NCBI GenBank assembly: GCA_038893495.1 | Contig: JAWARJ010000001.1 | Span: 682,001-746,000, forward strand | Source of the DNA: Thermoproteus sp. | Lineage (GTDB): Archaea; Thermoproteota; Thermoprotei; Thermoproteales; Thermoproteaceae | Direction: 5' to 3' | Length of the DNA stretch: 64,000 bases | In this document: positions 41,917 to 64,000 of the stretch, one piece after another | Numbering within the stretch: the stretch's first letter is position 1 | Layout of the letters: every line of letters starts with the position of its first letter | Notes under the pieces: generated by a model | Database searches by the model: none | Seen by the model: the letters and a program-made list of their open reading frames with translations, nothing else | Told to the model about the DNA's origin: nothing | Translations under genes and position numbers: made by a program

Positions 41917-42816
41917 CTACAGCCTCAACTCAGTCCTCTCCTTTAGGTTTTCGACGAGCCATATGCCCAGCTCTTTTGCCTTCTCTACGGCGCCGGGCAT
42001 GGCGATGTTGCAGTACAGCACCTTCACCAACTTGCCCTGAAACTTCTCGGGCCACCTCCTCGCCGCCTCGTCGATTCTGGCCGCTAGGCGCTCCACTGCG
42101 TTGGGGCCGGCTCTCACCTTGGCCTCCCCAACCACAGTCAACTCCCCCGTGGTGCAGTATATGTCGAACTCGTAGTCCGAGTCGAGAAAGAGCCTGTCGG
42201 GGACGCAGGTGATCCCCCTCTGTTTGAGAAGCCAACGCACCACGTCGCGCGCCTCCTCCTCAAGAGAAACCATAATCCTCTCCAACTGCTCCTTCGTCGC
42301 CATCTTATCCTCAAGCCTCTTTAGATCCTCCTTAGTGGCCATCTTGTTCTCCACCTCGTCGAGTCTCCTTTTCAATTCCTCTACGTCTTGTTTTGTCGCC
42401 ATCTTCTCCTCAAGCCTCTTGACCTCCCGCGCGAGGTCCTCCTTTGTTGCGTACTGCTTTAGGTCTTCCTTAGTGGCCATAGACTGCCTTATGTCTTGAA
42501 TCTCGCCTTCAATCCTCTTGACGTCCTCTTTAGTCGCGAACTTCTCCAAGTCGTCCTTCGTGGCGAATTGCTTCAGATCTTCCTTTGTCGCCATTTTCTC
42601 CTCAATCCTCCTTAAGTCCTCTTTGGTGGCCACATTGAGGGGTATGACTATCTCGCCGGCTATGGCTTTCGCCAACGCCAGTCTGGCCTCCTCCGACGAG
42701 AGGATGAGCTCCGCAAGTTCCCTCCCGTCTCCTCTAAGGGCCTCTATGATTACCTCTCTCAAGAACTGCCTCTCCTCCTTAACGAGGCGGCGGAGAAGCT
42801 CCTTAAACTCCTCCAC
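41917..42816 (-). CDS. repeat coiled-coil protein with C-terminal PD-(D/E)XK nuclease-like domain
   Basis: A 299-aa protein of the same plan and exactly the same length as the one at 15162-16061, but with a different repeat. A helical head (1-65) leads into seven or more ATKEDL-type units (KMATKEDLKRLEDK, QFATKDDLEKF), then a nuclease-like domain with YEFDIYCTTGELTVVGEAKV (D...ExK). A following VKVLYCNIAMPGAVEKAKELG strand/helix ends it. The MATKEDL repeat is widespread in DUF1640/DUF3782-like archaeal proteins. The function is unknown. Confidence 0.72.
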   Translation of the reverse strand: MEEFKELLRRLVKEERQFLREVIIEALRGDGRELAELILSSEEARLALAKAIAGEIVIPLNVATKEDLRRIEEKMATKEDLKQFATKDDLEKFATKEDVKRIEGEIQDIRQSMATKEDLKQYATKEDLAREVKRLEEKMATKQDVEELKRRLDEVENKMATKEDLKRLEDKMATKEQLERIMVSLEEEARDVVRWLLKQRGITCVPDRLFLDSDYEFDIYCTTGELTVVGEAKVRAGPNAVERLAARIDEAARRWPEKFQGKLVKVLYCNIAMPGAVEKAKELGIWLVENLKERTELRL

Positions 42817-45214: not shown

Positions 45215-45571
45215 ATGCTCTCGCCGTCGGATCTCGTCCATAGGCTTTCTGCCGTTAGGTCCCTCGCGTTACGTAGAGGGGTCTGGCTTAAGGCAAGCCC
45301 GACGGCGAGAGCGCTCATTGAATCAGTCGTGTTCCACCTAAAGAGGGGCGGGAGAGTCAAGTCGCCCGCCCTCCTCACGGCCCTAGAGGAGGCCGTCAAG
45401 GAGGTATTGACATTGGCCTTGCCGCTACGCGTCAAGGCGAAAGCCATCGGCTACGCCATAGCCAAAAGGCTCAAGATAGAGATAGACGAAGAAAAGGCAG
45501 TCGCGTTAGGCATACAGTGGATAAACACACCCAAGAGATACAGAGCTACGGTAAAAAGCTGGACGCCATAA
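45215..45571 (+). CDS. 118-aa protein of unknown function, copy 1
   Basis: A helical, basic 118-aa protein with a nearly identical paralogue at 51778-52134. The central block (VFHLKRGGRVKSPALL, then TALEEAV) and the ends (VALGIQW, TPKRYR, WTP) are shared. ATG 45215 is 24 bases after acatataag, and the second copy keeps the same arrangement. No family recognised. A family 2 glycosyltransferase follows each copy. Nothing visible suggests catalysis; the Arg/Lys content and helix pattern would fit nucleic-acid or protein binding. Confidence 0.7.
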   Translation: MLSPSDLVHRLSAVRSLALRRGVWLKASPTARALIESVVFHLKRGGRVKSPALLTALEEAVKEVLTLALPLRVKAKAIGYAIAKRLKIEIDEEKAVALGIQWINTPKRYRATVKSWTP

Positions 45572-46784: not shown

Positions 46785-46942
46785 GCACGCCACAGCCTAA
46801 AGGGCGCCGCCGATTGGGCCAACTGCAGGAGGCCGTCGAGCAGGCCCGAGAGGGGCCAGAAGGCCCTGTAGACGACGAACGACGCAAAGATAGTCAACGT
46901 TCAAAGAACAAAACGTAGGTGCTTTTAAATCTGAGTTGAGGC

Positions 46943-47509
46943 GTGGACGTGTACGAGACTGTCGAGAAGCCGCTCCCGAAGCCCTCAGCGGAGGAATACG
47001 CCTCTGTCCGCCTCCTCGAGGCGTTAGTAGAGGCCTTACTCGCCCTTAGATTCCTCAAGGAGGGCCTCGTGAGAAACGCCGCCGGTAAGGCCTTTCAGGC
47101 GTGGTGGGCAGTGCTGGCGGCTCTCCTCAGGCTGGAGCTCGACAGGCTTAAGGCCCTTGCCGAGGACGAGGAGGAGAGGCACTGGCTCGAAGAGAAGGCC
47201 GTCCCTAGAGTGCCGACGTCGAGAATGGTGACGCTCTCGCAAAGGCTAAGGGAGTTGGGCTATGGCGACGTCTTCGCGTGGACTGCCGTCGCGTTGGACC
47301 TACACGACTATCAATACAACGGGCCCGATCCAGACATGGCTCTCTCTAAGTATAGGTCGAGAGAGGAGGCGGCGGTGGCAGTTAGAGAGCTCGTAGAGGC
47401 CGTGGCCGAATACGCCGAAAGGCTCAAGGCTAGGGCCAAGTGGAGTGAGGAGCACGAAAAGGTTCTGAGAGAACTAGCGGCGTCGCTACGCGTATCCCAA
47501 AAGCAATGA
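46943..47509 (+). CDS. PaREP1-family helical protein, cassette copy 1
   Basis: A 188-aa member of the PaREP1 family, a helical family abundant in Pyrobaculum and relatives that has been grouped with HEPN-type domains. Conserved parts are PLPKPSAEEYASVRLLEAL, the core helix GLVRNAAGKAFQAW, VPRVPTSRM and LHDYQYNGPDPD. I see no canonical RxxxxH RNase motif. GTG 46943 (or 46949) follows cttttaaat. The stop overlaps the ATG of the ATPase gene (ATGA), so the two products are made together. Copy 2 lies at 48583. Confidence 0.85.
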   Translation: MDVYETVEKPLPKPSAEEYASVRLLEALVEALLALRFLKEGLVRNAAGKAFQAWWAVLAALLRLELDRLKALAEDEEERHWLEEKAVPRVPTSRMVTLSQRLRELGYGDVFAWTAVALDLHDYQYNGPDPDMALSKYRSREEAAVAVRELVEAVAEYAERLKARAKWSEEHEKVLRELAASLRVSQKQ

Positions 47510-48537
47510 GGCGTGTCAAACTCCAATTCGCTGGGCGGGAGGTAGAGTTTGTCGATAGGGAGACCGCAATAAGGCAGTTCGAAGAGCTGGCTGAGAAAGG
47601 GACATGGTGGCCTCTAGTCGTGTATGGGCCCGAGGGGTGCGGCAAGTCGGCACTGCTCAAACAGGCGGTGGAGGTCCTTAAGGAGCACGGCTATTCGGTG
47701 ACGTACATCAGTCCTTTGGCTAAAGATAGGGATGAGAGACTTCTATACACTGAGGACCTCAAGGATTTTGTAAGAGCTGTGCTCAAGGAGTTCGCCAAGA
47801 GGCTTCCAGACCCCCTTAACGACGCCAGCGCGCTTATCGACGTGGCCGTCGAGGCGTTGTACCGCGTCGTGAAGAGGGGCAGAAACAGGAAGATTGCGGT
47901 GCTGGCAGACGATGTCTTTCAAGCAATCGGCCTCGACAAGGCGGAGCTCCTCGTCAAGCAGTTCCTAAACATGATTGAATATCCCTCCATCAAATACGAA
48001 AAGATCGTGATCGTAGTGGCGTCGAGCGAGGGCGTAACGAGGAGGAGAGTAGGGAGACATAGGTGGGCCCAAATTAGGGCAATGTGGAACATGCCGCGTG
48101 ACGGCTTCCGCCAACTCTACGACTTGTTGCCAGAGCCGAAGCCCCCCTTCGAGGAGGTCTGGAGGTGGACCGGCGGGAACCCCGAAGCGCTGGAGGTATT
48201 ATATAGGGCCGGGTGGGATTTTCACAAGTTGGCTGTCGACTTGGCCACATCTAAAAACCTGTACAACTTGGCGGCCGGGTTGAAGGCCTCGGAGCGGCAA
48301 ATGTTAGCAGAGGCCCTGGAGGACCCCGACGCGCTTCTCCGGCCCGGGGGCGTAGACGGGCTGTTAGACCGGCTCGTAGAGCTAAACCTCATAGCTGAGG
48401 TGAACCCCTACAGAGACCCATACTTCTGGGTAGACCAGCCCCCACCCGAGAGAGACCCCGAGCTGGGGATCGGCAAGTACTACGCCTGGCAGACACCCCT
48501 CCACAGAGAGGCCGTGAGGAAAGCCCTAGCCGCGTAA
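47506..48537 (+). CDS. archaeal P-loop ATPase, cassette copy 1
   Basis: A 343-aa STAND/AAA-type ATPase of the archaeal ATPase group. It has VKLQFAGREVEFVDRE at the start, Walker A GPEGCGKS (residues 41-48), Walker B IAVLADD (131-137), a sensor-like IVVASSEG, and a C-terminal winged-helix-like region. The last 35 residues (DPYFWVDQPPPERDPELG followed by YYAWQTPLHREAV) are nearly identical in copy 2. It is coupled to the preceding PaREP1 gene. The substrate is unknown; an antitoxin-, chaperone- or defence-like pair is inference. Confidence 0.85.
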   Translation: MRRVKLQFAGREVEFVDRETAIRQFEELAEKGTWWPLVVYGPEGCGKSALLKQAVEVLKEHGYSVTYISPLAKDRDERLLYTEDLKDFVRAVLKEFAKRLPDPLNDASALIDVAVEALYRVVKRGRNRKIAVLADDVFQAIGLDKAELLVKQFLNMIEYPSIKYEKIVIVVASSEGVTRRRVGRHRWAQIRAMWNMPRDGFRQLYDLLPEPKPPFEEVWRWTGGNPEALEVLYRAGWDFHKLAVDLATSKNLYNLAAGLKASERQMLAEALEDPDALLRPGGVDGLLDRLVELNLIAEVNPYRDPYFWVDQPPPERDPELGIGKYYAWQTPLHREAVRKALAA

Positions 48538-48582
48538 CGGCACGCATGTGCGTCAGAGGAGTTTTTAAACCCGAGTAGGGAT

Positions 48583-49158
48583 GTGGACGTGTATGAGGCA
48601 GTCGAGAGGCCGCTCCCAAAGCCCACGGCGGAGGAATACGCCTCGGCGAGGCTGTTAGAGGCGTTAGTGGAGTCCCTCCTCGCCCTTAGATTTCTTGAAG
48701 AAGGCCTCGTCCGCAACGCCGCGGGGAAGGCCTTCCAGGCTTGGAGGGCGGTGCTGGCGGCTCTCCTCAAGCTGGAGCTCGACAAGCTCAAGGCCCTTGC
48801 CGAGGACGAGGAGGAGAGGAAGTGGCTTGAGGAGAGGGCAGTGCCGAGAGTGCCCACGACTAAGATGATACCGCTTTCGCAGAGACTTGGGGAGCTGGGC
48901 TACGGCGACATCTCAGCGTGGACGAGTCAAGCCCTCAACCTACACGATTATCAATACCACGGGCCGGATCCAGACATGGCGCTATCGAAATATAGGACTA
49001 GAGGTGAGGCGGCTGTTGCGGTAAGGGAATTGGCAAGGGCCGTGGTGGACTACGTGGAGAAGCTACGGGGAAGAGTAAAGTGGACGGAGGAGCACGAAAG
49101 GGCTTTGGGAAGGCTCGCGACGTCGTTGCGAAGCCCCAAAAACAATGAAGAGAGTTAA
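48583..49158 (+). CDS. PaREP1-family helical protein, cassette copy 2
   Basis: A 191-aa paralogue of the gene at 46943, similar along its whole length (roughly three quarters identical by eye), including GLVRNAAGKAFQAW and LHDYQYHGPDPD. The promoter is conserved too: tttttaaaccc before the start and the same VDVYE opening. Its 3' end overlaps the second ATPase by 14 bases instead of 4, because its C-terminus ends differently (SPKNNEES). Both copies keep open frames with mostly conservative changes, so both appear functional. Confidence 0.85.
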   Translation: MDVYEAVERPLPKPTAEEYASARLLEALVESLLALRFLEEGLVRNAAGKAFQAWRAVLAALLKLELDKLKALAEDEEERKWLEERAVPRVPTTKMIPLSQRLGELGYGDISAWTSQALNLHDYQYHGPDPDMALSKYRTRGEAAVAVRELARAVVDYVEKLRGRVKWTEEHERALGRLATSLRSPKNNEES

Positions 49159-50173
49159 GCTACCATTCGCCGGACGTGAGGTCGAGTTCGTAGACCGCGA
49201 GGTGGCGCTGAAGCAGTTCGAAGAGCTGGCGGAGAGGGGAACTAGATTTCCCCTTGTGGTCTATGGGCCGGAGGGCTGTGGCAAGTCGGCCCTCTTGAGG
49301 CAGGGCATGGAAGTATTGAGGGAGCGCGGCTACTCCGTTACGTACGTCAGTCCTCTTGTGGATAAGGAGCGCGACCGTCTGTTATACACAGAGGACCTTA
49401 AAGAGGTCATGAAGGAGGTGTTGGGCGAGGTCGTGAGCAGGTTTCCCGATCCATTCAACAGCGCCCGCGCCTTGATTACAATTGCAGTAGAGGCCCTCTA
49501 CCGCGCCGTGGAGAGGGGCAGGAATAAGAAAATCGCGGTGCTGGCAGACGACGTATTTCAAGCTATTGAGCTAGACAGGGCCGAACAACTAGTCAAACAG
49601 TTTCTAAACATGATAGAGTACCCCTCCGTGAGGTACGAGAAGATCGTCATCGTCGTGGCGTCGAGCGAGGGGGTTACTTGGGAGAGAGTTGGTCGGCACA
49701 GCTGGGCTGAAATTAAAACCATATGGAACATGCCGAGAGAGGGCTTCAGACGGCTCTACGACCTGTTGCCGGAGCCGAAGCCGCCGTTCGAGGAGGTCTG
49801 GAGGTGGACTGGGGGGAATCCGCGGTATTTAGACCGCCTGTATTTCGTCAAGTGGGACGTAGGGAAAGTCGTAGATGAGGCTGTGAGGCGAGGCCTTATG
49901 GACAGACTAGCCAGTCTAAACGACATGGAGAGGGAGGTGTTAAGGGAGGCTCTTGACGACCCAGACGCCCTCTTCCACAACATCAGGAGAGCGCCAAGCC
50001 TTGTGGATAAGCTGATCGAGTGGAACCTCATCACAAGAGTATACAACAAAGATCCATACTTCTGGGTCGACCAGCCCCCACCCGAGAGAGACCCGGAACT
50101 GGGAGTGGGCAGGTACTACGCGTGGCAGACACCCCTCCATAGGGAGGCAGTGAGGAAAGCGCTGGCGGGCTGA
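49145..50173 (+). CDS. archaeal P-loop ATPase, cassette copy 2
   Basis: A 342-aa paralogue of the ATPase at 47506. Walker A GPEGCGKSALLRQ, Walker B IAVLADDVFQ and VVASSEGVTW are kept. The shared GFRRLYDLLPEPKPPFEEVW block is followed by a strongly diverged stretch (about residues 230-290, within the winged-helix region). It then returns to a near-identical C-terminus (DPYFWVDQPPPERDPELG). The diverged middle suggests that the two copies recognise different partners while keeping the motor and the tail. Confidence 0.85.
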   Translation: MKRVKLPFAGREVEFVDREVALKQFEELAERGTRFPLVVYGPEGCGKSALLRQGMEVLRERGYSVTYVSPLVDKERDRLLYTEDLKEVMKEVLGEVVSRFPDPFNSARALITIAVEALYRAVERGRNKKIAVLADDVFQAIELDRAEQLVKQFLNMIEYPSVRYEKIVIVVASSEGVTWERVGRHSWAEIKTIWNMPREGFRRLYDLLPEPKPPFEEVWRWTGGNPRYLDRLYFVKWDVGKVVDEAVRRGLMDRLASLNDMEREVLREALDDPDALFHNIRRAPSLVDKLIEWNLITRVYNKDPYFWVDQPPPERDPELGVGRYYAWQTPLHREAVRKALAG

Positions 50174-50346: not shown

Positions 50347-50841
50347 CTATTGCTTCTGCTTTAGGGCCTCCAATATCGATCTGTGGATGTCCAGAAGGAT
50401 CTTTTGGTTTTCGACCATGACCTTCTGAAGTTCCATAATCAACTTGTTCATTTCGTCGAGCCTAGCCTGAAGCCCATCAATCCTCTTATTAGTCTCGTCA
50501 ATACGCCTATTCAACTGATCCGCGAGGGCGTCGATGCGTTTGTTAGTTTCATCTATTCGCCTATTCAGTTGCTCAGCAAGCGCGTCGATACGTTTGTTCG
50601 TCTCATCTATACGTTGGCTTAACTGCTGAAAGACTTCATCTATACGCTTGTTGGTCTCATCGATACGCCTATTGGTCTCGTCTATTCGCTTATTAGTTTC
50701 GTCTATACGCCGGTTCTGCTCCCTCAGAACGGCGAGAGTCAAGAGGAAAAGGTCCTCCGTCTTAAGCTTCTCGCCCTTTTCTACCTTCTTTAGGACTATC
50801 TCGAGGGACTTATCGAGAACCGGGCCGAGGACGGACTCCAT
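50347..50841 (-). CDS. heptad-repeat coiled-coil protein
   Basis: A 164-aa protein consisting of a short helical head (SVLGPVLDKSLEIVLKKVEKGEKLKTED) and a long coiled coil made of RRIDETNKRIDE units (seven-residue period), then a helical end (MELQKVMVENQKILLDIHRS). Unlike the proteins at 15162 and 41917 it has no nuclease domain. The frame is open to 51177, but ATG 50841/50844 is right after a minus-strand TATA tttatata (50866-50859), and the upstream residues are Arg/Pro rich and unlike protein. It may bridge other proteins. Confidence 0.7.
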   Translation of the reverse strand: MESVLGPVLDKSLEIVLKKVEKGEKLKTEDLFLLTLAVLREQNRRIDETNKRIDETNRRIDETNKRIDEVFQQLSQRIDETNKRIDALAEQLNRRIDETNKRIDALADQLNRRIDETNKRIDGLQARLDEMNKLIMELQKVMVENQKILLDIHRSILEALKQKQ

Positions 50842-51119
50842 CATATGGTAATATAGCCTATATAAAAAACTGACACGCCGCAAGCAACGCCTATGTAGCG
50901 AGGCCCAGCGACGCGGGACGGATCCGGCAAAGGCATGGCCCCCACACGCCAGTTGCGGCAGGAGCCCGCGGCCGATGGAGGCCGCGAGGCGGCGTATACG
51001 GGCTGGAGGCGGGGTGTCGAGCAGAGCCGCCGAAGGGAGGGCGTCGGGGCGTCGGCTTTCGCCAGCCCTATCCGCGGCGCCTGTTCTCCGAGTTGAGGTA
51101 GTAGCTAATATTATATCGG

Positions 51120-51777: not shown

Positions 51778-52134
51778 ATGCTCTCGTCGGGGGTTCTGCG
51801 CCTGAGGCTTTCTGCCGTTAGGGCTCTCGCGCTGCGTCGGGGAGTTTGGTTTAGGGTTAGGCCCCCGGCGAGGGCGCTCATCGAATCAGTCTTGTTCCAC
51901 CTAAAGAGGGGCGGGAGGGTCAAGTCGCCCGCCCTCCTCACGGCCTTAGAGGAGGCCGTTAGGGAGATCTTATCCTTGACGTTGCCCCTCCGCATCAAGG
52001 CGAAAGCCATCGGCTACGCTATCGCCAAAAGGCTTGGAGTCAAGGTGGACGAAGAGAAGGCCGTCGCTCTAGGAATACAGTGGATGAATACGCCGAAGAG
52101 ATACAGAACAGCCGTAGAGGAGTGGACGCCGTGA
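51778..52134 (+). CDS. 118-aa protein of unknown function, copy 2
   Basis: Paralogue of 45215-45571, the same length and about 75-80 percent identical by eye. The block FHLKRGGRVKSPALL is identical. ATG 51778 is 24 bases after agcttaaaagag. The first bases after its stop (gtgaggaagccgtcggaa) resemble a stretch about 40 bases after the stop of copy 1 (gtgaggaagcccgttggaa), so the duplication probably extends beyond the gene. It too is followed by a family 2 glycosyltransferase gene. Confidence 0.7.
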   Translation: MLSSGVLRLRLSAVRALALRRGVWFRVRPPARALIESVLFHLKRGGRVKSPALLTALEEAVREILSLTLPLRIKAKAIGYAIAKRLGVKVDEEKAVALGIQWMNTPKRYRTAVEEWTP

Positions 52135-52297: not shown

Positions 52298-53200
52298 ATG
52301 AAGGTAGTTGTGGGCATACCGACATTCAACAGGCCTGACATATTACGTATATCCCTACCGAGGCTCGCAGCATCGGGCGTTGATGGATTGATAGTAGTGG
52401 CCGACGCGGTGGATGAGGTAACCCTTGGGAAGTACAGGGAATTGATAAACGACGTCGCGAAGAGCATAAACGACGTAATTTACGACCTGAACCTCGGCAG
52501 GAGGGGCTCCGTCAATGCGAGAAACAAGGTCTTGGAGCTATTCCTAGAGCATTATGGCAATAACTACGCCATAATCACATACGATGACGACTACATACCG
52601 CCGAAGACGGACTGGATACGCCCCGCACTCGCACATTTCAGAGATGCCAACGTGGGGATTGTAGGCGGCAAGGTCATAAACCTCAGAAGGAGACGCGTAG
52701 ACCCAGACTTCAGCCTAAACGTAATGCCCTACCTAGCCGACGTGCTCACCGAAGCGACAGGATTCATATTCCTAGACACAAAGCACGGACCGAGAACCGC
52801 CAAGTACGTGACGCACCTAATGGCGATAAGAAGAGAGGTAATAGAGAGAGGGGTTAGGTACGACACACAATACAAAGGCACAGGCTATAGAGAGGAAAGC
52901 GACCTCCAAGAACGAGCGCGGAAACTAGGCTATAGAATAATATTCGAACCGAACTTCTACACATACCACGCAAACCTAGAGTACGGAGGAGATAGGTCAG
53001 AAGATAAACCGGCAAGGTTCTACTGGAAGGCTAGAAACAATACATACTTCATGTTAAAGAACCAAAAACCAAAAATAAAGCTAATACTAAGTACATACAT
53101 AATACTCGCATATGCGATGATAAACGGACCAAAAACCGCTAAAAATGTGATAAAAGGCATAAAAGACGGATATGGGACATTCCACGAAACCCCAAGGTAG
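52298..53200 (+). CDS. family 2 glycosyltransferase
   Basis: A 300-aa GT2 enzyme. The N-terminal nucleotide-binding strand is VVGIPTFNRPDILRISLPRL and the metal motif is IITYDDDYIPP (DDD in place of DXD), followed by VGIVGGKVINLRRRRVD. The C-terminal part is Tyr/Lys/Asn rich (ARFYWKARNNTYFML) with a final hydrophobic stretch. It adds a sugar to an unknown acceptor. GC content falls towards its 3' end, where the AT-rich island begins. It opens the run of co-directional glycan genes that continues to the window end. Confidence 0.85.
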   Translation: MKVVVGIPTFNRPDILRISLPRLAASGVDGLIVVADAVDEVTLGKYRELINDVAKSINDVIYDLNLGRRGSVNARNKVLELFLEHYGNNYAIITYDDDYIPPKTDWIRPALAHFRDANVGIVGGKVINLRRRRVDPDFSLNVMPYLADVLTEATGFIFLDTKHGPRTAKYVTHLMAIRREVIERGVRYDTQYKGTGYREESDLQERARKLGYRIIFEPNFYTYHANLEYGGDRSEDKPARFYWKARNNTYFMLKNQKPKIKLILSTYIILAYAMINGPKTAKNVIKGIKDGYGTFHETPR

Positions 53201-53212
53201 TGATACGCAACG

Positions 53213-53338
53213 ATGATCATAAAAATCGTATTTGCTTGCCATGACTTCCCAGCACTTAAGTGTATGCCAAATTTCTATAATAGGGCGCTGGATTTCGTAA
53301 TACTTAATAAGATATATAGAAGGATAGTCTATGTTTGA
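53213..53338 (+). pseudogene. 41-codon fragment at the edge of the AT-rich island
   Basis: An open frame from ATG 53213 to TGA 53336-53338 (MIIKIVFACHDFPALKCMPN, then YNRALDFVILNKIYRRIVYV). It lies between the GT2 and FkbM genes. It looks like the start of a larger protein cut off after 41 residues, since nothing this short is expected to begin with such a core strand. It overlaps the FkbM start by four bases, so it could also be a small translated leader. Confidence 0.3.
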
Positions 53339-54075
53339 AAATATATTCAATGTTATTATTGTCGGCTTTTAGGCCGTTAATGAAACATAGATATTTCCAA
53401 TATAGAGGAAATATGGCAATATATTATTTACTTGTAGCTATATCTAAATTATATTCATTATTGTTCTTTGGCCTAGATCATATAATCATTATAACGCCAT
53501 ACGGTAAATTACTGGTGCCAAAAAAAGGTTATGCGAGCGGAGCCAGGCCCATTACTATGGCCCTAGATGTCGTAGAGCCACAATGGAAACCCTACTTTGA
53601 AACTATGATAAAAGACGCCGACTGGTTCCTAGACATAGGGGCGGCGTCAGATGGGTATTATACGTTAAAAGCCGTACGATTAAATCCAAAGATTAAAGTA
53701 ATAGCTATAGAACCGTTAAAGAAAGAATATTACTATCTTTTTAATAATTTAATATTGAATAATATTTATAGAAATGTTAAATCATTAAATGTAGCCTTAT
53801 GCAGAGAAGAAAAAGAAACTGAAATTGAAGGAGAAAAAGTAAGATGCGTAACATTGAAGGATCTTGGCGAATTAAAAGGAAGGGGAGTAATAAAGTTAGA
53901 TGTAGAAGGAGCCGCGTATGATATATTGCATAATTTTCTAGATTATATATGTAATTTAAAGCCTGTCATATTCTTAGAGATACATAATGAGCAAGAGGTT
54001 AAACTACTATTTATGCTTAAATCATGTGGATATAAAGATATAAAAAAGAGCGGAGGTATGCATATACTCATATGA
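53335..54075 (+). CDS. FkbM-family methyltransferase
   Basis: A 246-aa SAM-dependent methyltransferase of the FkbM group that methylates sugar hydroxyls of surface glycans. Motif I is WFLDIGAASDGYYTLKAVR and the next acidic strand is IKVIAIEPLKKEYYYL. The second motif, GVIKLDVEGAAYDIL, is the family hallmark. TTG 53335 is the upstream start; ATG 53350 is equally likely. The gene is strongly AT-rich compared with the rest of the window. The stop overlaps the next ATG (ATGA), tying it to the GT4 gene. Confidence 0.82.
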   Translation: MKIYSMLLLSAFRPLMKHRYFQYRGNMAIYYLLVAISKLYSLLFFGLDHIIIITPYGKLLVPKKGYASGARPITMALDVVEPQWKPYFETMIKDADWFLDIGAASDGYYTLKAVRLNPKIKVIAIEPLKKEYYYLFNNLILNNIYRNVKSLNVALCREEKETEIEGEKVRCVTLKDLGELKGRGVIKLDVEGAAYDILHNFLDYICNLKPVIFLEIHNEQEVKLLFMLKSCGYKDIKKSGGMHILI

Positions 54076-55202
54076 TAATAATACATACATATCACCACTA
54101 CTGGCCGGTAACAGGAGGACTAGAAAACGCCGTAAAGAACCTGGCGGAAGAACAGGCGAAGCTTGGCCATGAGGTGCACGTCGTAACGAGCACATACGGC
54201 GCTCAGGGAAGGCCAAGAGAAGAAGAGGTGAACGGGGTCTACGTACATAGGGTAAAGGCATGGAGGCCGCAGTACCCAGACCTGACGGTACCGAGGGAAA
54301 TACCTAGGGGACTCCTAAAGAGGGCCGACGTGGTGCACGCCCACTCACAAAACAGCCTATTCGCCGTGAGGATCGCACAGGAGGCACACAGGCTGGGCGC
54401 CAAAGTGGCGATGCACTACATGGCCGTCGACACCCTACAGACCCACCCAAACCCCGCCATAAGGCTACTAGGGCCGATATACGCGAGGCGCAACTTGAGG
54501 ACAGCCCTCGGGATCGCCGACATACATCTGGTGAGGAGCAGAAGAGACCAAGAAATACTCAGGAGGAAATACGGCGTAGAGCCCCACTACCTACCAGACG
54601 CGGTGCCTACGTACTACCTAACGAGGCCCAAAGCCGACCCCGATGAGTTCAGGAGAAGGTTCGGCATACCCCAAGACAGGCTGTTCGTATATGTGGGGAG
54701 GATACACAAGCTCAAAGGCCCATACGTGTTAGTCAAGGCCATGCCGCACTTAAGCAAAGACATCGGGGTAGTCATGGCCGGGCCGGACAACGGCTACTTA
54801 AGGGCAGTCCTCGAGCTCGCCGACAGGCTGGGCGTAAGGGACAGGCTCCACTATCTGGGCTATGTCGACGAGGACACGAAGATAGACGCTCTGGACTCCT
54901 CAATAGCGCTGGTCCTGCCATCGGTGACCGATTACGTGGAGGTGTACCCAATGATAATAACCGAGGCATGGGCTAGGGAAAGGCCGGTGGTAGGGACCGC
55001 CGTGGGGGGAATACCGTACAGGATAAGACACGGCGAAAACGGATCGCTAGTGCCGCCGAATGACCCGCAGGAGCTGGCAAAGGCCATGTCGGAGCTGGCC
55101 GAGAACGCCGAAATAGCGGAAAAGATGGGCAGAACAGGTAGAAAAGAGATAAATACATGGGATGAAATAGCTAAAGAATCGATAGATCTATACCGACTAT
55201 GA
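54072..55202 (+). CDS. family 4 glycosyltransferase
   Basis: A 376-aa GT4 enzyme. The acceptor half starts THYHHYWPVTGGLENAVKNL; the donor half has VYVGRIHKLKGPYVLVKAM and the E-x7-E region VEVYPMIITEAWARERPVVG. It likely adds mannose, glucose or a related sugar to a lipid-linked glycan on the cytoplasmic side. GC content is back to about the window average, in contrast to the FkbM gene before it. It overlaps the FkbM stop and the epimerase start, so three genes are coupled. Confidence 0.9.
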   Translation: MIIIHTYHHYWPVTGGLENAVKNLAEEQAKLGHEVHVVTSTYGAQGRPREEEVNGVYVHRVKAWRPQYPDLTVPREIPRGLLKRADVVHAHSQNSLFAVRIAQEAHRLGAKVAMHYMAVDTLQTHPNPAIRLLGPIYARRNLRTALGIADIHLVRSRRDQEILRRKYGVEPHYLPDAVPTYYLTRPKADPDEFRRRFGIPQDRLFVYVGRIHKLKGPYVLVKAMPHLSKDIGVVMAGPDNGYLRAVLELADRLGVRDRLHYLGYVDEDTKIDALDSSIALVLPSVTDYVEVYPMIITEAWARERPVVGTAVGGIPYRIRHGENGSLVPPNDPQELAKAMSELAENAEIAEKMGRTGRKEINTWDEIAKESIDLYRL

Positions 55203-56152
55203 GCAAGCGGGCGCTCGTAACAGGAGGAGCCGGCTTCATCGGAAGCCACCTGGTGGACAGGCTCATCGACATGGGGTGGCACGTCAGGGTTCTAGACAAC
55301 CTGAGCACGGGAAGGCTGGAAAACCTGAAGCGGCATATCGGCAAGAAGAATTTCGAGATCCTGCAAGCCGACCTAAAGAATAGAGAGGCCGTAGAGAAGG
55401 CAGTTGAGGGTGTTGATGTGGTTTTCCACTTTGCGGCGAATCCGGAGGTGAGAGTGAGCACCACCGACCCGGAGGTGCACTATAGGGAGAACGTAGAAGC
55501 TACATTTAGCTTGCTAGAGGCCATGAGGAAGAAAGACGCGAAGGAGCTCGTCTTCGCGTCGTCCAGCTCGGTCTACGGGGAGCCCGAAGAGATACCGGTG
55601 GGGGAGGAGGCGCCGGTGAGGCCCGTGTCGGTGTACGGGGCCACTAAGGCCGCATGTGAGAACCTGATACACGCCTACACGAAGCTCTACGGCATTAGGG
55701 CGGTGGTCTTGAGGTACGCCAACGTTGTGGGGCCGAGGCTGAGGCACGGCGTGATATACGACTTGTTAATGAAGCTTAGGAGGGATCCCAACAAGCTGGA
55801 AGTCCTCGGCGATGGGACCCAGACGAGGAGCTACGTCTACATCGACGACGCTGTGGAGGCCACATTGCTGGCATACGAAAAGTCGAGAGGCGCCTTCAAG
55901 GCCTACAACGTCGCCAGTGAGGACTGGATAGCCGTGAACGACGTAGTCGAAGTCCTGCTGGAAGTGACCGGCCTAAAGCCCCACGTCGTCTACAAGCCGG
56001 TGCTACACGGCGTGGGGTGGCCAGGCGACGTCAAGAAGATAGCGTTGAAGATAGACAAACTGAAGGAACTGGGCTACAGGCCCAAGATGAAGAGCAAAGA
56101 GGCGGTGGGGGCTACAGCAAAGGCCCTGGTGGAGGAGCTGGGGCTTAGATGA
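55199..56152 (+). CDS. NAD-dependent nucleotide-sugar epimerase (GalE-like)
   Basis: A 317-aa extended short-chain dehydrogenase. The Rossmann loop is VTGGAGFIGSHLVDRL, then NLSTGRLENL, VFHFAANPEVRVS and the catalytic YGATK with the upstream Ser (ASSSSVYGEPEE). Members interconvert UDP-glucose and UDP-galactose or related sugars. The exact substrate cannot be read from the sequence, so I give no symbol. It supplies activated sugar for the neighbouring transferases. It overlaps the GT4 stop (ATGA) and the next gene. Confidence 0.9.
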   Translation: MSKRALVTGGAGFIGSHLVDRLIDMGWHVRVLDNLSTGRLENLKRHIGKKNFEILQADLKNREAVEKAVEGVDVVFHFAANPEVRVSTTDPEVHYRENVEATFSLLEAMRKKDAKELVFASSSSVYGEPEEIPVGEEAPVRPVSVYGATKAACENLIHAYTKLYGIRAVVLRYANVVGPRLRHGVIYDLLMKLRRDPNKLEVLGDGTQTRSYVYIDDAVEATLLAYEKSRGAFKAYNVASEDWIAVNDVVEVLLEVTGLKPHVVYKPVLHGVGWPGDVKKIALKIDKLKELGYRPKMKSKEAVGATAKALVEELGLR

Positions 56153-56580
56153 AAATCATCGTAATAAGGAGGGTCTCCCTAATAAACACGGCCGCCACCC
56201 TGTTGATAGCCGCGGCTAAACTGCCAGCCAGAATATTGGCCGTAGTCGTAGCCCTAGCGGCAATTCCGGCATTCCTCTTCTACTTCGCCGGTTGGAACGT
56301 CCAATCCATCCAATACAGCGAGTACTATCCACAAACGTTTCTAGCCGCCCATGGCCCCAGCGTAGGTCCCTACAGTAGGTTGCCTACAGCGCCTAACTTC
56401 CTTATAAATAACAATATAAATCCAGGCATGTACTATAAAATAACTCATGTGAATAATTTGATACAAATATACTATTATACACAGTCATATATAATTAATA
56501 AGATAAATACATACTTATTGCCACATGAAAGTCTGATATATAACTCTGGTGCCTTCAAGTTAGTAAAGCCTGTTAGATAG
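56149..56580 (+). CDS. chimeric short membrane protein, probably a collapsed larger gene
   Basis: A 143-aa frame. The first half is GC-rich with one membrane helix (ILAVVVALAAIPAFLFYFAG) and the segment YSEYYPQTFLAAHGPSVGPY. At about base 56395 base composition switches to AT-rich, and the second half (YYKITHVNNLIQIYYYTQSY, then LIYNSGAFKLVKP) resembles the last strand of large archaeal membrane glycosyltransferases. The likely reading is the two ends of one or two large genes joined after deletion. The frame stays open, so it may still be made. Confidence 0.5.
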   Translation: MKIIVIRRVSLINTAATLLIAAAKLPARILAVVVALAAIPAFLFYFAGWNVQSIQYSEYYPQTFLAAHGPSVGPYSRLPTAPNFLINNNINPGMYYKITHVNNLIQIYYYTQSYIINKINTYLLPHESLIYNSGAFKLVKPVR

Positions 56581-56585
56581 CGGCC

Positions 56586-57401
56586 GTGAAGATCAGCATA
56601 GTAGTTCCAAGCAAAGGTTGCATCTATATCAAATATCTACTGACCTCGCTCAGAGACCAAACCACAAAGCCGAATGAAATCGTCCTCGTCCTCAAGGACT
56701 GCGACGTCCAGCGGATCGAAAAGGCCTATTCGCCTTGGCTCAACCTAGTCGTGGTGGAACAGAAAGAGGGATATTTCACCCACGCGTTGAATCTAGGCAA
56801 AAAGGCCGCATCAGGCGATATAATCATATTCACCGATGACGACGCAATAACCCCCAAGGGTTGGATTAAAAAATATATTAGATTTCATAGACTATATCCC
56901 AGGACGGCTGGGATCTCTAGCAGAGATATCTATATCGAATTGAAGTCCATGAGGATCAGACCCACACCAGACGATTTGCCCTACGTGAGGATCTACAGAT
57001 GGACCTTCAGGCCGCTACTAGAAAGACCCCATCCGCTTCTAAAAGACTACGCACTAGGCATATATGTGACTAGAGACTACAAGATCGCACATGGCCCATG
57101 TATACCCAACAGGTCGTGCTACTCCTTGCCCTTTAGGGGCGTTAATATGAGCTTTAAAGCAGAATATATTTACGATATTTGGTTTCCTGAACATCCCTTA
57201 CTCAGAAGAGCTCCTGGCAACGAGCAATACTTCGGCTTGCAGTTACTACTCAAGGGATTCAATACTATTTATGTTCCTGGCAACCCTGTTCTTCACATAT
57301 ATAGAGAAGAAAGTTTGTCAAGGACTAGAAATAGAAACGAGATAAATGTAGAGTATTACACAATGAAGCAGTTATTTAGAGAAATGCTTGAGGGGAAATG
57401 A
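56586..57401 (+). CDS. family 2 glycosyltransferase
   Basis: A 271-aa GT2 enzyme with KISIVVPSKGCIYIKYLLTS at the start, a metal site in DIIIFTDDDAITPKGW and a substrate region LPFRGVNMSFKAEYIYDIWF. No membrane helix was seen. It starts at a GTG five bases after the preceding stop and its end overlaps the next ATG (ATGA). Composition grows more AT-rich towards the 3' end. Confidence 0.87.
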   Translation: MKISIVVPSKGCIYIKYLLTSLRDQTTKPNEIVLVLKDCDVQRIEKAYSPWLNLVVVEQKEGYFTHALNLGKKAASGDIIIFTDDDAITPKGWIKKYIRFHRLYPRTAGISSRDIYIELKSMRIRPTPDDLPYVRIYRWTFRPLLERPHPLLKDYALGIYVTRDYKIAHGPCIPNRSCYSLPFRGVNMSFKAEYIYDIWFPEHPLLRRAPGNEQYFGLQLLLKGFNTIYVPGNPVLHIYREESLSRTRNRNEINVEYYTMKQLFREMLEGK

Positions 57402-58597
57402 GGGTTGCGTTAATATCTTCAGGCCTTGTACCAGTTCCGCCTAAGCGTGGTGGCGCCGTAGAGCTCTACGTCTATTACTTAGTTAAAGAGTTAAGAAAGC
57501 AAGGTATAGAAGCATATGTGATCGACAGAGATTGGGATAGTAATGAGCAGATATATGAGAACGATTTTATGCTAAGAATCCCCCTAAGAAATCCGCTATC
57601 ACTTCACCTAGACAAACTACTTGGTAAGAGGAAAAAGATCTTGGAGGAGCTCTCCTTCGGTTTTGAGGTTTTAAAATATCTAAGGAATTTCGATATAGTA
57701 CATGCTAACACTGCCTGGGCTGGCTATGTTATTGCCATCAAAAAACGTGAATTAAATAATGCTAGACTTGTTTACACATGTCACAATGGCTTATGGACCG
57801 AGGAGAAAGTCCACCTAGGTGAAAAAGTGATTAGGTATGTGGAAGGTTATATCATGAGAAAAGTTGATGTAGTTATAGCTCTAAACAACACTATGAAGAG
57901 AGCTTTGGTTAAGAAAGCGGGTATTAGCTTAGAGAAAGTAGTTACTATACCGAATGGCGTTGACGTAGAGTTCTACAGACCTGGAATAGAGTGTAGCGAA
58001 GTTGCCCAAAAATTGAGTCTTCAAGGGAAGTATGTAGTACTCTTTGTTGGAAGGATCTCCTCAGAAAAGGGTGTACACATTCTCTTAAAGGCGCTTAAAA
58101 TCCTCAAGGACAGATACGGTCTTCGAGACGTAAAAACTTTGATAGTGGGCCCACTCTCTGGGACATATGGTTCCTCAGATATTTCACCATATGCTAAAGA
58201 GCTCATGAAATATGTACGTCAAGAACATTTAGATGTAATATTTTTCGGGGATGCAGATCCAACAACATTAAGAAAAATATACTCGTGCTCCCATATATTT
58301 GTACTTCCATCACTGTTTGAAGCCTTCCCTATGGTTCTACTGGAGGCCATGGCCTCAGGACTCCCTGTCATAGGCTCGAGAGCTGGGGGAATACCCGATA
58401 TTATTAAAGATGGCGTTAACGGGCTCTTATTTGAGAAGGGTTCTCCAGAAGATTTAGCAGAAAAGCTTAGCGTACTGTTAACCAATGATTCTCTACGTAG
58501 AGAAATGGGTAGAGAATCTAGAAGAATTACTGAAGAAAAGTATTCTTGGCAAAAGGTTGCTGAAAAGATACTATATACATATAAGGCCTTGAGTTAA
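57398..58597 (+). CDS. family 4 glycosyltransferase
   Basis: A 399-aa GT4 with SGLVPVPPKRGGAVELYVYYL in its acceptor half (GGAVE loop). In its donor half are VLFVGRISSEKGVHILLKAL and the SLFEAFPMVLLEAMASGLPV region containing the E-x7-E pair. The gene is AT-rich with AGA/ATA-type codons unlike the core genome. It overlaps the GT2 gene before it. The sugar and acceptor are unknown. Confidence 0.9.
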   Translation: MRVALISSGLVPVPPKRGGAVELYVYYLVKELRKQGIEAYVIDRDWDSNEQIYENDFMLRIPLRNPLSLHLDKLLGKRKKILEELSFGFEVLKYLRNFDIVHANTAWAGYVIAIKKRELNNARLVYTCHNGLWTEEKVHLGEKVIRYVEGYIMRKVDVVIALNNTMKRALVKKAGISLEKVVTIPNGVDVEFYRPGIECSEVAQKLSLQGKYVVLFVGRISSEKGVHILLKALKILKDRYGLRDVKTLIVGPLSGTYGSSDISPYAKELMKYVRQEHLDVIFFGDADPTTLRKIYSCSHIFVLPSLFEAFPMVLLEAMASGLPVIGSRAGGIPDIIKDGVNGLLFEKGSPEDLAEKLSVLLTNDSLRREMGRESRRITEEKYSWQKVAEKILYTYKALS

Positions 58598-58617
58598 GAT
58601 GAGATGATTTTTTAAGA

Positions 58618-59823
58618 ATGAGGGTCCTACATTTAATACCTGCTTTAAGTGGCGGTGGCGTACTCAATGTAAGCATCAATTTAACGAAGGCATTTGCAAA
58701 GCTTGGACACGAACTCTATGTGATTGGGCCTCGCAATAAAGAACTTATGAAGTACGCTAACATGTTTATAGAAACCAAAGCCCCTCTAGATCTTGTGAGT
58801 GACCCATTCTATGCTTATGCTTACACGCTAAGAAATGTGAACACAGTAAAGAGTCTCACAAAGGAAGAGAAGGTTGACATTATTTTAACCCATGGTCCTC
58901 TGGTAGTATTGTGTATGTATGAAGGCATTAACATCCCGTGTTTTTCTGTTGTTCATGGAACTTATGGTAATGAAGTACGTTGGATGCGCTACCACCCCTT
59001 AAGAGGCTTTGATAAGTTAAGATATATGCTATCGATAGCTCTTACTTATACCCACGATATGAAGCTTTATAGTCTAGCGACTAAGAAAGGATTAAAACTA
59101 ATTGCCGTAAGCGAGAGGACGAGACAAGAGCTCATAAAAAACGGAACTTTAGGAGAAAACGTGTTCAGCATACTCAATGGTGTAGATATAGAGCTCTTTA
59201 GACCAATAAATAGAGAGTTTGCTCGGCAATATGTAGAAAAGAAGTACGGCATTAGACTAGACGACTTTATTATAGCTCACGTGGGTTTGGGGCCTATAAA
59301 GGGTACACATGTCTTAGTCAAAGCTTTGGCAATACTTAAGAAGAGGGTTAAGTTCACAGCTCTCTTTGCAGGTAGGTTGGGACCTAAAAGCTATCGCGAA
59401 TACATAGAAAAAATTGTTAGAGAATTAAATCTATCTAAAGCAGTAAAGATGCTTGGCTGGGTTCCCTATGAAGACTTATCATTCATCTACAATGTAGCTG
59501 ATGTAATTGTGGTTCCAAGCTATAGTGAGGGTGGACCCTTAACGACACCAGAGTCCTTAGCGTGTGGCACACCCGTGATAGCGACGAACGTTGGTGGGAA
59601 TATGGAGTACTTAAAGGCTGTAAATATGGAACGTAATCTCATAGAAATCAAGAAGTATGATTTTTCAATAGAATTATTTTCAAAAATTTATGACTTTTAT
59701 GTGAACAAATATACATATTCACGAGAGAATCTCGCCAAAACAGCTAGTCATCACTTCTCATGGACTAAAATAGCACAGAAATACATCACTACGATATCCA
59801 AAACTTTGGCCAAGTATCATTAA
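58618..59823 (+). CDS. family 4 glycosyltransferase
   Basis: A 401-aa GT4. It starts RVLHLIPALSGGGVLNVSIN with the Gly-rich acceptor loop and continues through HVGLGPIKGTHVLVKALAIL to the SEGGPLTTPESLACGTPVIA region. In that region the first acidic residue of the usual E-x7-E motif is kept and the second is the Glu of PES. The gene is AT-rich and lies 20 bases after the previous stop. It shares the overall layout with the gene before it, but the acceptor halves differ, as expected for enzymes adding successive sugars. Confidence 0.88.
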   Translation: MRVLHLIPALSGGGVLNVSINLTKAFAKLGHELYVIGPRNKELMKYANMFIETKAPLDLVSDPFYAYAYTLRNVNTVKSLTKEEKVDIILTHGPLVVLCMYEGINIPCFSVVHGTYGNEVRWMRYHPLRGFDKLRYMLSIALTYTHDMKLYSLATKKGLKLIAVSERTRQELIKNGTLGENVFSILNGVDIELFRPINREFARQYVEKKYGIRLDDFIIAHVGLGPIKGTHVLVKALAILKKRVKFTALFAGRLGPKSYREYIEKIVRELNLSKAVKMLGWVPYEDLSFIYNVADVIVVPSYSEGGPLTTPESLACGTPVIATNVGGNMEYLKAVNMERNLIEIKKYDFSIELFSKIYDFYVNKYTYSRENLAKTASHHFSWTKIAQKYITTISKTLAKYH

Positions 59824-59824
59824 T

Positions 59825-60865
59825 ATGTATGATCAATTCGATAAGTTAATTTCCTTAGTTATTCCTATAAGAAACGAAAGTAATGAGGTAATTTCTACAC
59901 TGTGTCAAAGTCTAAAGATGCAAAAGTTCAAAGATCTTTATGAAGTAATAATAGTTGATGAAAGTGATGATGAACATCTTATATATATACTATCATGTAT
60001 AGATGCCTTGCAGAAAGAGAGGATACATGTTAAATTTTTACATAAGTCTTTTCAAGGTGTAGGACACGCTACGCTTGAAGGATTGAAACTAGCTAATGGC
60101 ATGTATGTAATTTTCTTAGACAGCGATAATTTGATTAGTACAGATTTTATTGAAACTTTAGTCAATACATTGAGAAAAGAAAAAGACTTGAATATATTGG
60201 CTTTTGTGTCCTTTCTGTCACGTACATCATATCAATTCTCGCTATCGAATAAACCATTTTTAATTGCAAGACTTTACCTTTCTACCTTCTTCAAGGGATT
60301 AATCTATAATCGTAACATTGGGTTTATCAATATATTAAGAATGTGGAATAGGAGATTTTTACTTGAGGTTGTGGGAACAGATATTAAAAGCCCACTTCTC
60401 TCTTATCAAGATCAGCCAAAGTTCTGGTTTAAAGTCTTTGAGGGATTGAAAAAAGGTTGGAAATATAGACATATAGACAAAGTTCTAATTGAAGATATTA
60501 GACACAATATTGAGGATTATAATTATAGGTTCATATGCAGAAGAATGAAGTGGTACGTAAAGGGAGCTATGACGGCATTAGCAAATCATGAGATTACAGC
60601 ATATACTCTAATGACTTTAGCCCTACCTGTAGCACTAATACTAGTGTTCTTGGCTATAATTATCAATTTTAAATTAACAATCACTGTATCAGCTACCTTA
60701 TATTCCATCTTATTTATCCTACTGTGTAAAGTACGAAGATTACCGATCCTCACTACAAATACTCTAAAAGCGTTTGTCTTTATACCAGTATTGCTACTGA
60801 TAGAATCCTTGTGTGGGTTGTTAGCAATAGTGGAGGTAGCAGTAATGCAAAGAATTAAGATTTAG
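59825..60865 (+). CDS. family 2 glycosyltransferase with C-terminal membrane helices
   Basis: A 346-aa GT2. The catalytic part has ISLVIPIRNESNEVISTLCQ, VIIVDESDD and the metal motif MYVIFLDSDNLIS. About three membrane helices follow near residues 255-335 (LMTLALPVALILVFLAIII, then LYSILFILL and FVFIPVLLLIESLCGLLAI). The ATG at 59825 is one base after the previous stop. Such dolichol-phosphate-sugar synthase-like enzymes prepare lipid-linked sugars or act on them. AT-rich. Confidence 0.85.
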   Translation: MYDQFDKLISLVIPIRNESNEVISTLCQSLKMQKFKDLYEVIIVDESDDEHLIYILSCIDALQKERIHVKFLHKSFQGVGHATLEGLKLANGMYVIFLDSDNLISTDFIETLVNTLRKEKDLNILAFVSFLSRTSYQFSLSNKPFLIARLYLSTFFKGLIYNRNIGFINILRMWNRRFLLEVVGTDIKSPLLSYQDQPKFWFKVFEGLKKGWKYRHIDKVLIEDIRHNIEDYNYRFICRRMKWYVKGAMTALANHEITAYTLMTLALPVALILVFLAIIINFKLTITVSATLYSILFILLCKVRRLPILTTNTLKAFVFIPVLLLIESLCGLLAIVEVAVMQRIKI

Positions 60866-60883
60866 ATATTTAATTACATCTTT

Positions 60884-62272
60884 TTGATATTTGGCGTAGC
60901 CAATTATGCGGAGAAATCTACTTGGAGAAAATTTAATGTGAAGAGGTTACTGACCCAGCCCTCGGTGTTAGTAACTTTATCGCCTACTACCTACTATGGT
61001 GGAGCTGATTCAATATCATATTCGATTTACTATGCTCTAAAATCTCTTGGTTACGATGTTTATCCATATCATATTGAGGGTAGCAACTATGCTCGTTCTA
61101 CTATGTTTTCTCATTCTACCATGTTTTTAAGCGCTGAAATAACAAATATGATGAGTAAGACCATCGATAAAATGCTTCAAAGGACGGAGAAAATTATTGC
61201 AATTTCGACTTTTCCTCAATACACATATCATTTACTGAAATTGAAGGGGAGGTATAATAATAAATTAATTGTTTTATGGAGACCTGGAGGTAACGATTTC
61301 TTATGCCCACTTCATAATGAAGTTTGCCCTTACTCTCCTCAGGAGATTGCCTACGGCTTCTCTACTTCACCTCAATTCTTCTTAACTAAATGTATTTGGC
61401 ACATGCTTAAAATCAGAAAGTTTTCTCTATACAGCACCTTGATATGGCCGTCACTACGAATATTAGCAAAACAACGGTTAGACGGACTTTTAGCATCTCG
61501 TAGTATATACATAGAGGGATGCAAAAGAATCGGCTATGAAAGGTGTTTCTATATAGGCTTTGGAATTGATACTGCCAGGTTTAAACCAAGAGACAAGGCC
61601 ATAATCATCGAGCACCTTGTTAACAGTAATATCCTCAACTCAGTGAAGAGCAACATCCTACTTGGAGAACTTCGGACCTTCATAATCGATGTCCATGACC
61701 CTAACACTATGGTATTTGGTTTTATAGGTTCTACAAGACCTAGATGGAAAAATGTCGAACTCTTAATCAAAGTATTTGCACAATTAAAAAAGATTGAACA
61801 ACAATTAGTCGGTGAACGTAAGTTAAATTTAAAGTTGATAATTATAGCTAGAGATGCTGATCTCTTGGTTCCATCTATTCACCAATATTCGAGTTATTTA
61901 GAGGATTCCATATTAGTTATTCGAAGAATACCACATCAATACATACATTATTTCTATAACCTAATAGATATTTTCGTCAATCCTTCTCTTCTAGATTCAC
62001 TTGAAGTGAATACGCTAGAGGCGTTGGCCTCCGGGAACATTGTACTAGCAAGCAATCGAGGTTCCATAAAAGATCTTGAGAGGTTAGGAATCAAAGTAAT
62101 AAGGTTCGAACCCAGGGAAAAGGAGCTAGTGCAAACAATTATTAACCTGGTCAACGATTTAGATAAAATAAGAAAAATTTATAAAAATAATCTAAATATT
62201 TTTAAGAAAGCTTTTGATCTGAACGCTTTTGCTAAGCGATTAGATAGGGCCTTACAAGAGCTAGTCTCATGA
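60884..62272 (+). CDS. family 4-like glycosyltransferase
   Basis: A 462-aa GT-B enzyme. The acceptor half has LSPTTYYGGADSISYSIYYAL and a long variable middle with several Cys (FLCPLHNEVCPYSPQEIAYG) that could form a metal site. The donor half has FGFIGSTRPRWKNVELLIKV and VNPSLLDSLEVNTLEALASG, the E-x7-E region. The TTG at 60884 is the first start; an in-frame ATG or GTG closer to the conserved core (near FNVKRLLTQ) is possible. AT-rich. Confidence 0.82.
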   Translation: MIFGVANYAEKSTWRKFNVKRLLTQPSVLVTLSPTTYYGGADSISYSIYYALKSLGYDVYPYHIEGSNYARSTMFSHSTMFLSAEITNMMSKTIDKMLQRTEKIIAISTFPQYTYHLLKLKGRYNNKLIVLWRPGGNDFLCPLHNEVCPYSPQEIAYGFSTSPQFFLTKCIWHMLKIRKFSLYSTLIWPSLRILAKQRLDGLLASRSIYIEGCKRIGYERCFYIGFGIDTARFKPRDKAIIIEHLVNSNILNSVKSNILLGELRTFIIDVHDPNTMVFGFIGSTRPRWKNVELLIKVFAQLKKIEQQLVGERKLNLKLIIIARDADLLVPSIHQYSSYLEDSILVIRRIPHQYIHYFYNLIDIFVNPSLLDSLEVNTLEALASGNIVLASNRGSIKDLERLGIKVIRFEPREKELVQTIINLVNDLDKIRKIYKNNLNIFKKAFDLNAFAKRLDRALQELVS

Positions 62273-62291
62273 GGTATTCTAGGGATATATC

Positions 62292-63986: not shown

Positions 63987-64000
63987 AATTATTAATTTGT

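Follow-up and report, generated by a model that had tools for sequence, protein, structure and literature searches.

Do the PaREP1 proteins, of which many Thermoproteales genomes hold tens of copies with a role that is not known, form a two-component system with an ATPase encoded beside them? The question is raised by a 64,000-nucleotide stretch of the hyperthermophilic archaeon Thermoproteus sp. (the window; positions 682001-746000 of a home genome assembled as a single contig of 1,995,394 bases), where open reading frame analysis finds, as the original prediction had it, two side-by-side PaREP1-ATPase units, a and b, with four intact genes on the + strand at 46943-50173. We find that the pairing recurs in related genomes above chance but is loose and non-obligate, and that modular exchange within the ATPases stands out more: judged from their sequences, they have repeatedly exchanged a C-terminal segment that is probably a sensor.

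In both units the ATPase starts inside the PaREP1 frame, with an overlap of 4 nt (ATGA) in unit a and 14 nt in unit b and no intergenic room for a separate ATPase promoter. A TTTTAAA box lies 13 nt 5' of each PaREP1 start, and the two other PaREP1-ATPase units of the home genome have a similar TTTAAA-type box 13-14 nt 5' of theirs; by consensus only, the boxes of units a and b would be the promoters of their own that had been proposed for them. Direct repeats begin at 46917 and 48557, so the duplication takes in the promoter stretch, and the two copies are 77% identical in PaREP1 and 70-71% in the ATPase. In both units the centre of the box is only ~17 nt 5' of the annotated PaREP1 start, near enough that a leaderless transcript would begin near an in-frame GTG at codon 3, which may be the true start.

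The home genome encodes five ATPases of this subfamily, of which four (at 729, 731, 765 and 1494 kb) directly follow a PaREP1 gene and one, at 762 kb, is unpaired. In units a, c and d the ATPase start overlaps the PaREP1 stop as NTGA; P. aerophilum has the same gene order with a GTGA overlap, its ATPase belonging to the other main motor clade. Across the home genome and its relatives, 22 of the 61 ATPase-PaREP1 pairs within 10 kb lie <300 bp apart compared to ~2.4 expected from a uniform spread (p 7e-16), and 17/54 when the home genome is left aside (p 2e-11), p-values that are too strong because they treat pairs as independent, which recent duplicates (for example in WP30, a Pyrobaculum sp.) are not. 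Twenty of the 22 near pairs are on one strand, and pair density is ~7.6 per 100 bp below 150 bp versus 0.2-0.9 beyond 600 bp. A same-strand PaREP1/8 gene within 300 bp, in either order, accompanies 19 of 103 ATPases (a combined count, since competing profiles make the labelling of neighbours as PaREP1 or PaREP8 unreliable), and PaREP1/8 is the commonest neighbour family found, the next ones occurring at 6 and 5 loci. Among 78 ATPase matches in 19 genomes of the family, 19 have a PaREP1 on the same strand no more than 500 bp away. On the motor-domain tree of the 103 ATPases, linkage needs 15 changes (gains or losses), 11 of them forced by starred branches. Another dominant partner for the unlinked ATPases was looked for, and none emerged beyond PaREP1/8.

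ATPa and ATPb match PF01637 (ATPase_2) at 231-245 bits (Pfam gathering threshold, 33.2), with weak Pfam matches to NB-ARC, NACHT and nSTAND in addition. The AlphaFold2 (AF2) model of ATPb, with a mean predicted local distance difference test score (pLDDT) of 95.7, has the archaeal ATPase PABY2304 (2qen) as its nearest fold, matched over the whole length, followed by Cdc6/ORC, DnaA, Avs3 and plant NLR cores (RPP1). The sequence motifs are a GPEGCGK P-loop, DD at 135-136, GGNP at 223-226 and a conserved WQTPLHREAV tail. With its P-loop, GxP motif, winged helix and NB-ARC/NACHT-like fold, ATPb as modelled is a STAND/ATPase_2 protein without a fused effector, in agreement with the P-loop ATPase partner foreseen for PaREP1. 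In immune receptors, ATPases of this class serve as molecular switches. Residues 227-304 form helices and the start of a unit that we interpret as winged-helix-like, the conserved tail supplying its wing and final helix. A scan of contigs with a single ATPase sequence gave no match; with an alignment as query the search found 150 loci, and relatives hold up to 17 ATPase matches per genome. None of the relatives searched has an ATPase above ~62% identity to those of the window, which are hence lineage-specific.

The motor and tail of the two ATPases had been described as conserved and the winged-helix region as diverged. Identity between ATPa and ATPb is indeed only 42% in residues 227-304, compared to 85% in 126-226 and 92% from 305 to the end, but residues 81-125 (62%; 75% in residues 1-80) are a second variable stretch. 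Across the 103 ATPases the segment 227-304 falls into two classes, 'RW..WLE.AVEDPD.LW' and 'L..L...ER..L..AL.DPD.L', with both window ATPases in the second. Segment class changes 22 times on the motor tree (residues 1-226), at least 11 of these changes being forced, versus four times on the segment's own tree. In P. calidifontis, one pair of ATPases shares 93% identity over the motor and 38% over the segment, with no aligned base differing in residues 81-125; the corresponding values are 54% and 86% for two ATPases of Vulcanisaeta distributa, and 51% and 76% for two of WP30. Trees that hold motor and segment together are rejected for these three pairs (p 0.047, 0.0018 and 4e-87, respectively), the p-values being descriptive because the pairs were picked after their identities had been seen.

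In close pairs with unsaturated synonymous divergence (dS), the ratio of nonsynonymous to synonymous divergence (dN/dS) of the segment is ~0.20-0.25, indicating purifying selection; the segment being so constrained, exchange makes much of its variety, which is on this sequence comparison old and redistributed by recombination or gene conversion. Between ATPa and ATPb dS is saturated, so that the dN/dS comparison along the two that had been suggested is uninformative, and exchange is not separately demonstrable for them. The idea that divergence of the winged-helix region reflects diversification driven by different targets is not supported by these results. The variable segment of an ATPase on a contig from a metagenome-assembled genome (MAG) assigned to Candidatus Calditenuaceae, possibly misbinned, is identical to that of P. 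aerophilum.

PaREP1a and PaREP1b match PF05942 at 92-93 bits (Pfam gathering threshold, 24.4), and all 28 members of a PaREP1 set match this profile as well. There are 20 PaREP1 copies in the home genome, and single genomes of the order hold as many as 48. A PaREP1 profile run against PDB sequences gave no HEPN match, and folds were therefore compared. The AF2 model of PaREP1b is all-helical (pLDDT 93.7), and its high-probability PDB matches are HEPN proteins, namely 2q00 (Sulfolobus), 2hsb, 1ufb, AbiV, 1wol and the sacsin HEPN domain. The HEPN grouping made earlier thus finds support, not proof, in a predicted HEPN-type four-helix fold, because the E-values of these matches are 0.02 or worse (TM-scores by query length, 0.35-0.45). 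In an alignment of 62-64 distinct PaREP1 sequences, H121 (63/63), R44 (62/62), W54 (63/63), Y123 and D129 are invariant and K49 is nearly so (61/63, 97%).

Our preferred reading, held tentatively and at rather less than even confidence, is that units a and b are small operons, each combining a STAND-type switch that has an exchangeable sensor segment with a co-expressed HEPN-like PaREP1 partner, in a conflict or stress role. PaREP1 would be co-translated with an ATPase that acts as a nucleotide-controlled switch, whose exchangeable segment 227-304 would read a signal and whose invariant tail may help to hold the resting state. The switched ATPase would then license a helical effector, in these units the PaREP1 expressed with it, for action on RNA or nucleotides. 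As it carries no effector domain itself, the ATPase may team up with any HEPN-like partner at hand, and the loose linkage would be consistent with this. As to the setting, an intracellular conflict or stress role appears most likely.

A number of observations weigh against this reading. No same-strand PaREP1/8 neighbour is found for 84 of the 103 ATPases, and 107/127 PaREP1 among the matches listed are unlinked to an ATPase. Gene order is not conserved, with PaREP1 upstream in 9 and downstream in 10 of 19 linked cases. Of the closest relatives of the window ATPases (57-62% identical, from the MAGs WANN and JALWZH), most are single genes or belong to tandems made up of ATPases only. The home ATPases closest in the motor domain are b-d and a-e, yet in PaREP1 b-d ranks among the two most divergent home pairs, and hence the partners were not simply duplicated together; joint duplication of the pairs as units was considered and rejected, PaREP1 and ATPase distances disagreeing among the four home pairs. 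The ATPase family is absent from the viral contigs, no PHROGs family covers PaREP1 or the ATPase, and PADLOC detects no known anti-phage system, its P-loop matches being weak (the strongest, E 2.9e-5, is with mad8). Moreover, PaREP1 has no conserved Arg at positions 114-117 and thus lacks the Rx4-6H motif, a published trait of the Parep1/8 branch (PMC3710099). Hence, linkage to the ATPase in other genomes, which the original prediction made the test of a two-component system, is recurrent and far above chance, but an obligate two-gene module is not supported.

The strongest rival, unlikely but to be taken seriously, is that the two genes are coincidental neighbours: two expanded families share accessory islands, and local duplication leaves and then amplifies adjacency without joint function. 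Both families are indeed strongly expanded, most members are unlinked, gene order flips, and tandems <300 bp also occur within each family (4/29 PaREP1-PaREP1 and 7/26 ATPase-ATPase pairs); moreover, PaREP elements mark variable regions in P. oguniense (PMC3558965). Such coincidence accounts poorly for the steep rise in pair density at short range and the shared strand of nearly all near pairs, or for the same 4-nt overlap in two distant ATPase lineages.

Two further explanations appear very improbable, and almost equally so. The ATPase might be a DNA-handling protein: with its Cdc6/ORC-like fold and winged helix, it would be a factor of mobile or repetitive elements that binds specific DNA sequences. 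Segment exchange would then alter the DNA site, and the part of PaREP1 would be incidental or structural. The prominence of ORC, Cdc6 and DnaA among structural matches, the location of the exchanged segment at the winged helix and the existence of tandem and decayed ATPase arrays speak for it, but the best fold match is 2qen, with Avs3 and NLR NB-ARC cores also matched, and there is no tRNA in the window and no repeat around the units besides the gene duplicates. A toxin-antitoxin pair, with a HEPN-like PaREP1 as RNase toxin and the ATPase as antitoxin or modulator, is by a shade the less probable of the two. HEPN/MNT systems have HEPN proteins as their toxins (PMC7641770, PMC3710099), and overlapping two-gene operons in tandem copies would fit, but PaREP1 has no Rx4-6H Arg and is usually without the ATPase (one genome has seven PaREP1 matches and no such ATPase), and the unit contains no AMPylating MNT.

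The window PaREP1 proteins resemble PaREP1/PaREP8 (PF05942; HEPN-T Parep1/8, Anantharaman et al., 2013) in family assignment (E 1e-26), conserved His, absent Rx4-6H Arg, expansion in Thermoproteales and nearest fold (2q00), but the operons in the table of Anantharaman et al. (2013) combine Parep with tandem Parep or with MNT and restriction endonuclease genes, not with this ATPase. The ATPases share the P-loop, GGNP, winged-helix-like end and whole-length fold with archaeal STAND/ATPase_2 proteins of the PABY2304 (2qen) type, and differ from them in having no fused effector or long sensor repeats and in their WQTPLHREAV tail, exchangeable segment and, sometimes, PaREP1 neighbour. HEPN-STAND fusions have been described in bacteria (PMC3710099) and likewise combine a HEPN effector with a STAND NTPase, whereas here the genes are separate, co-translated and loosely paired. 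HEPN/MNT (HepT/MntA) is also a two-gene operon with a HEPN-fold protein, but here the partner is an ATPase_2 protein rather than a nucleotidyltransferase and the HEPN Arg is absent. Avs and NLR immune receptors have a STAND fold and a variable C-terminal part too, but they are single large proteins with their own effector, unlike these small ATPases. Our literature search, with subscription papers largely outside it, found no description of PaREP1-ATPase pairing or of ATPase segment exchange, which is weak evidence of novelty.

Restriction specificity subunits and immune receptors are known to diversify by segment exchange of the kind seen here in a probable sensor region, and the recurrent pairing with a STAND-type ATPase offers PaREP1 a testable partner. 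A more far-reaching proposal, which we regard as improbable, is that hyperthermophilic Thermoproteota have a family of split receptors for immunity or stress that resemble NLRs. Its small STAND switches would diversify by exchanging a C-terminal sensor cassette of ~78 residues between two ancient classes, and would act via PaREP1-type HEPN effectors encoded adjacent or in trans. If true, this would be the first regulator to be proposed for the expanded PaREP1 family. Thermoproteota defence systems are sparse apart from CRISPR-Cas, restriction-modification and argonautes (PMC12988326), and an undetected defence class there would matter.

Features of the two PaREP1-ATPase units and their flanking genes (window coordinates).
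Feature	Position	Strand	Remarks
TATA-like TTTTAAA 5' of PaREP1a	46923..46929	+	similar box in all four genomic units; consensus only
PaREP1a, HEPN-like helical protein, 188 aa, GTG start	46943..47509	+	PF05942 E 2.7e-26
ATPa, ATPase_2/STAND-type ATPase, 343 aa	47506..48537	+	PF01637 E 1.3e-72; start overlaps PaREP1a stop
Variable C-terminal segment V of ATPa, ~residues 227-305	48184..48420	+	42% identity to ATPb
TATA-like TTTTAAA 5' of PaREP1b	48563..48569	+	within duplicated stretch; consensus only
PaREP1b, HEPN-like helical protein, 191 aa, GTG start	48583..49158	+	PF05942 E 1.2e-26; AF2; PDB HEPN matches
ATPb, ATPase_2/STAND-type ATPase, 342 aa	49145..50173	+	PF01637 E 1.7e-68; AF2; PDB matches
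Walker A of ATPb, GPEGCGKS	49265..49288	+	G41-K47 conserved >=97% in 103 ATPases
Variable C-terminal segment V of ATPb, residues 227-304	49823..50056	+	two exchangeable classes family-wide
Flanking gene copy 1, 118 aa, without family	45215..45571	+	78% protein identity to copy 2
Flanking gene copy 2, 118 aa, without family	51778..52134	+	78% protein identity to copy 1

The duplicated genes between which the units had been placed are the two 118-aa copies listed above, which have no Pfam or PHROG match; other genera and orders likewise carry members of this helical-looking family next to related ATPases (six loci). A coiled-coil gene with RIDETNKRIDE repeats at 50350-50856 (-) of the window has counterparts near several home-genome ATPases (locus L036, near 9316 and 14726). 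A retropepsin-like aspartyl protease gene adjoins ATPases of this family at five loci, and HepT-like HEPN genes lie 67-68 bp from family ATPases, in convergent orientation, in P. calidifontis and P. oguniense (L108 3522-3782 and L146 3914-4312). In Vulcanisaeta the ATPases form tandem arrays with several copies in fragments (L197, L193 and L216). At ~1,383 kb of the home genome (L003 810-1172 and 2252-2599), two genes that look like MNT-type nucleotidyltransferases flank one PaREP1, recalling HEPN/MNT pairs. Elsewhere in the window, the coiled-coil proteins encoded at 41917-42816 and 15162-16061 have a C-terminal end that by eye resembles a PD-(D/E)XK nuclease (D..E.K), and a long glycosyltransferase cluster (52298-64000) lies directly 3' of the units.

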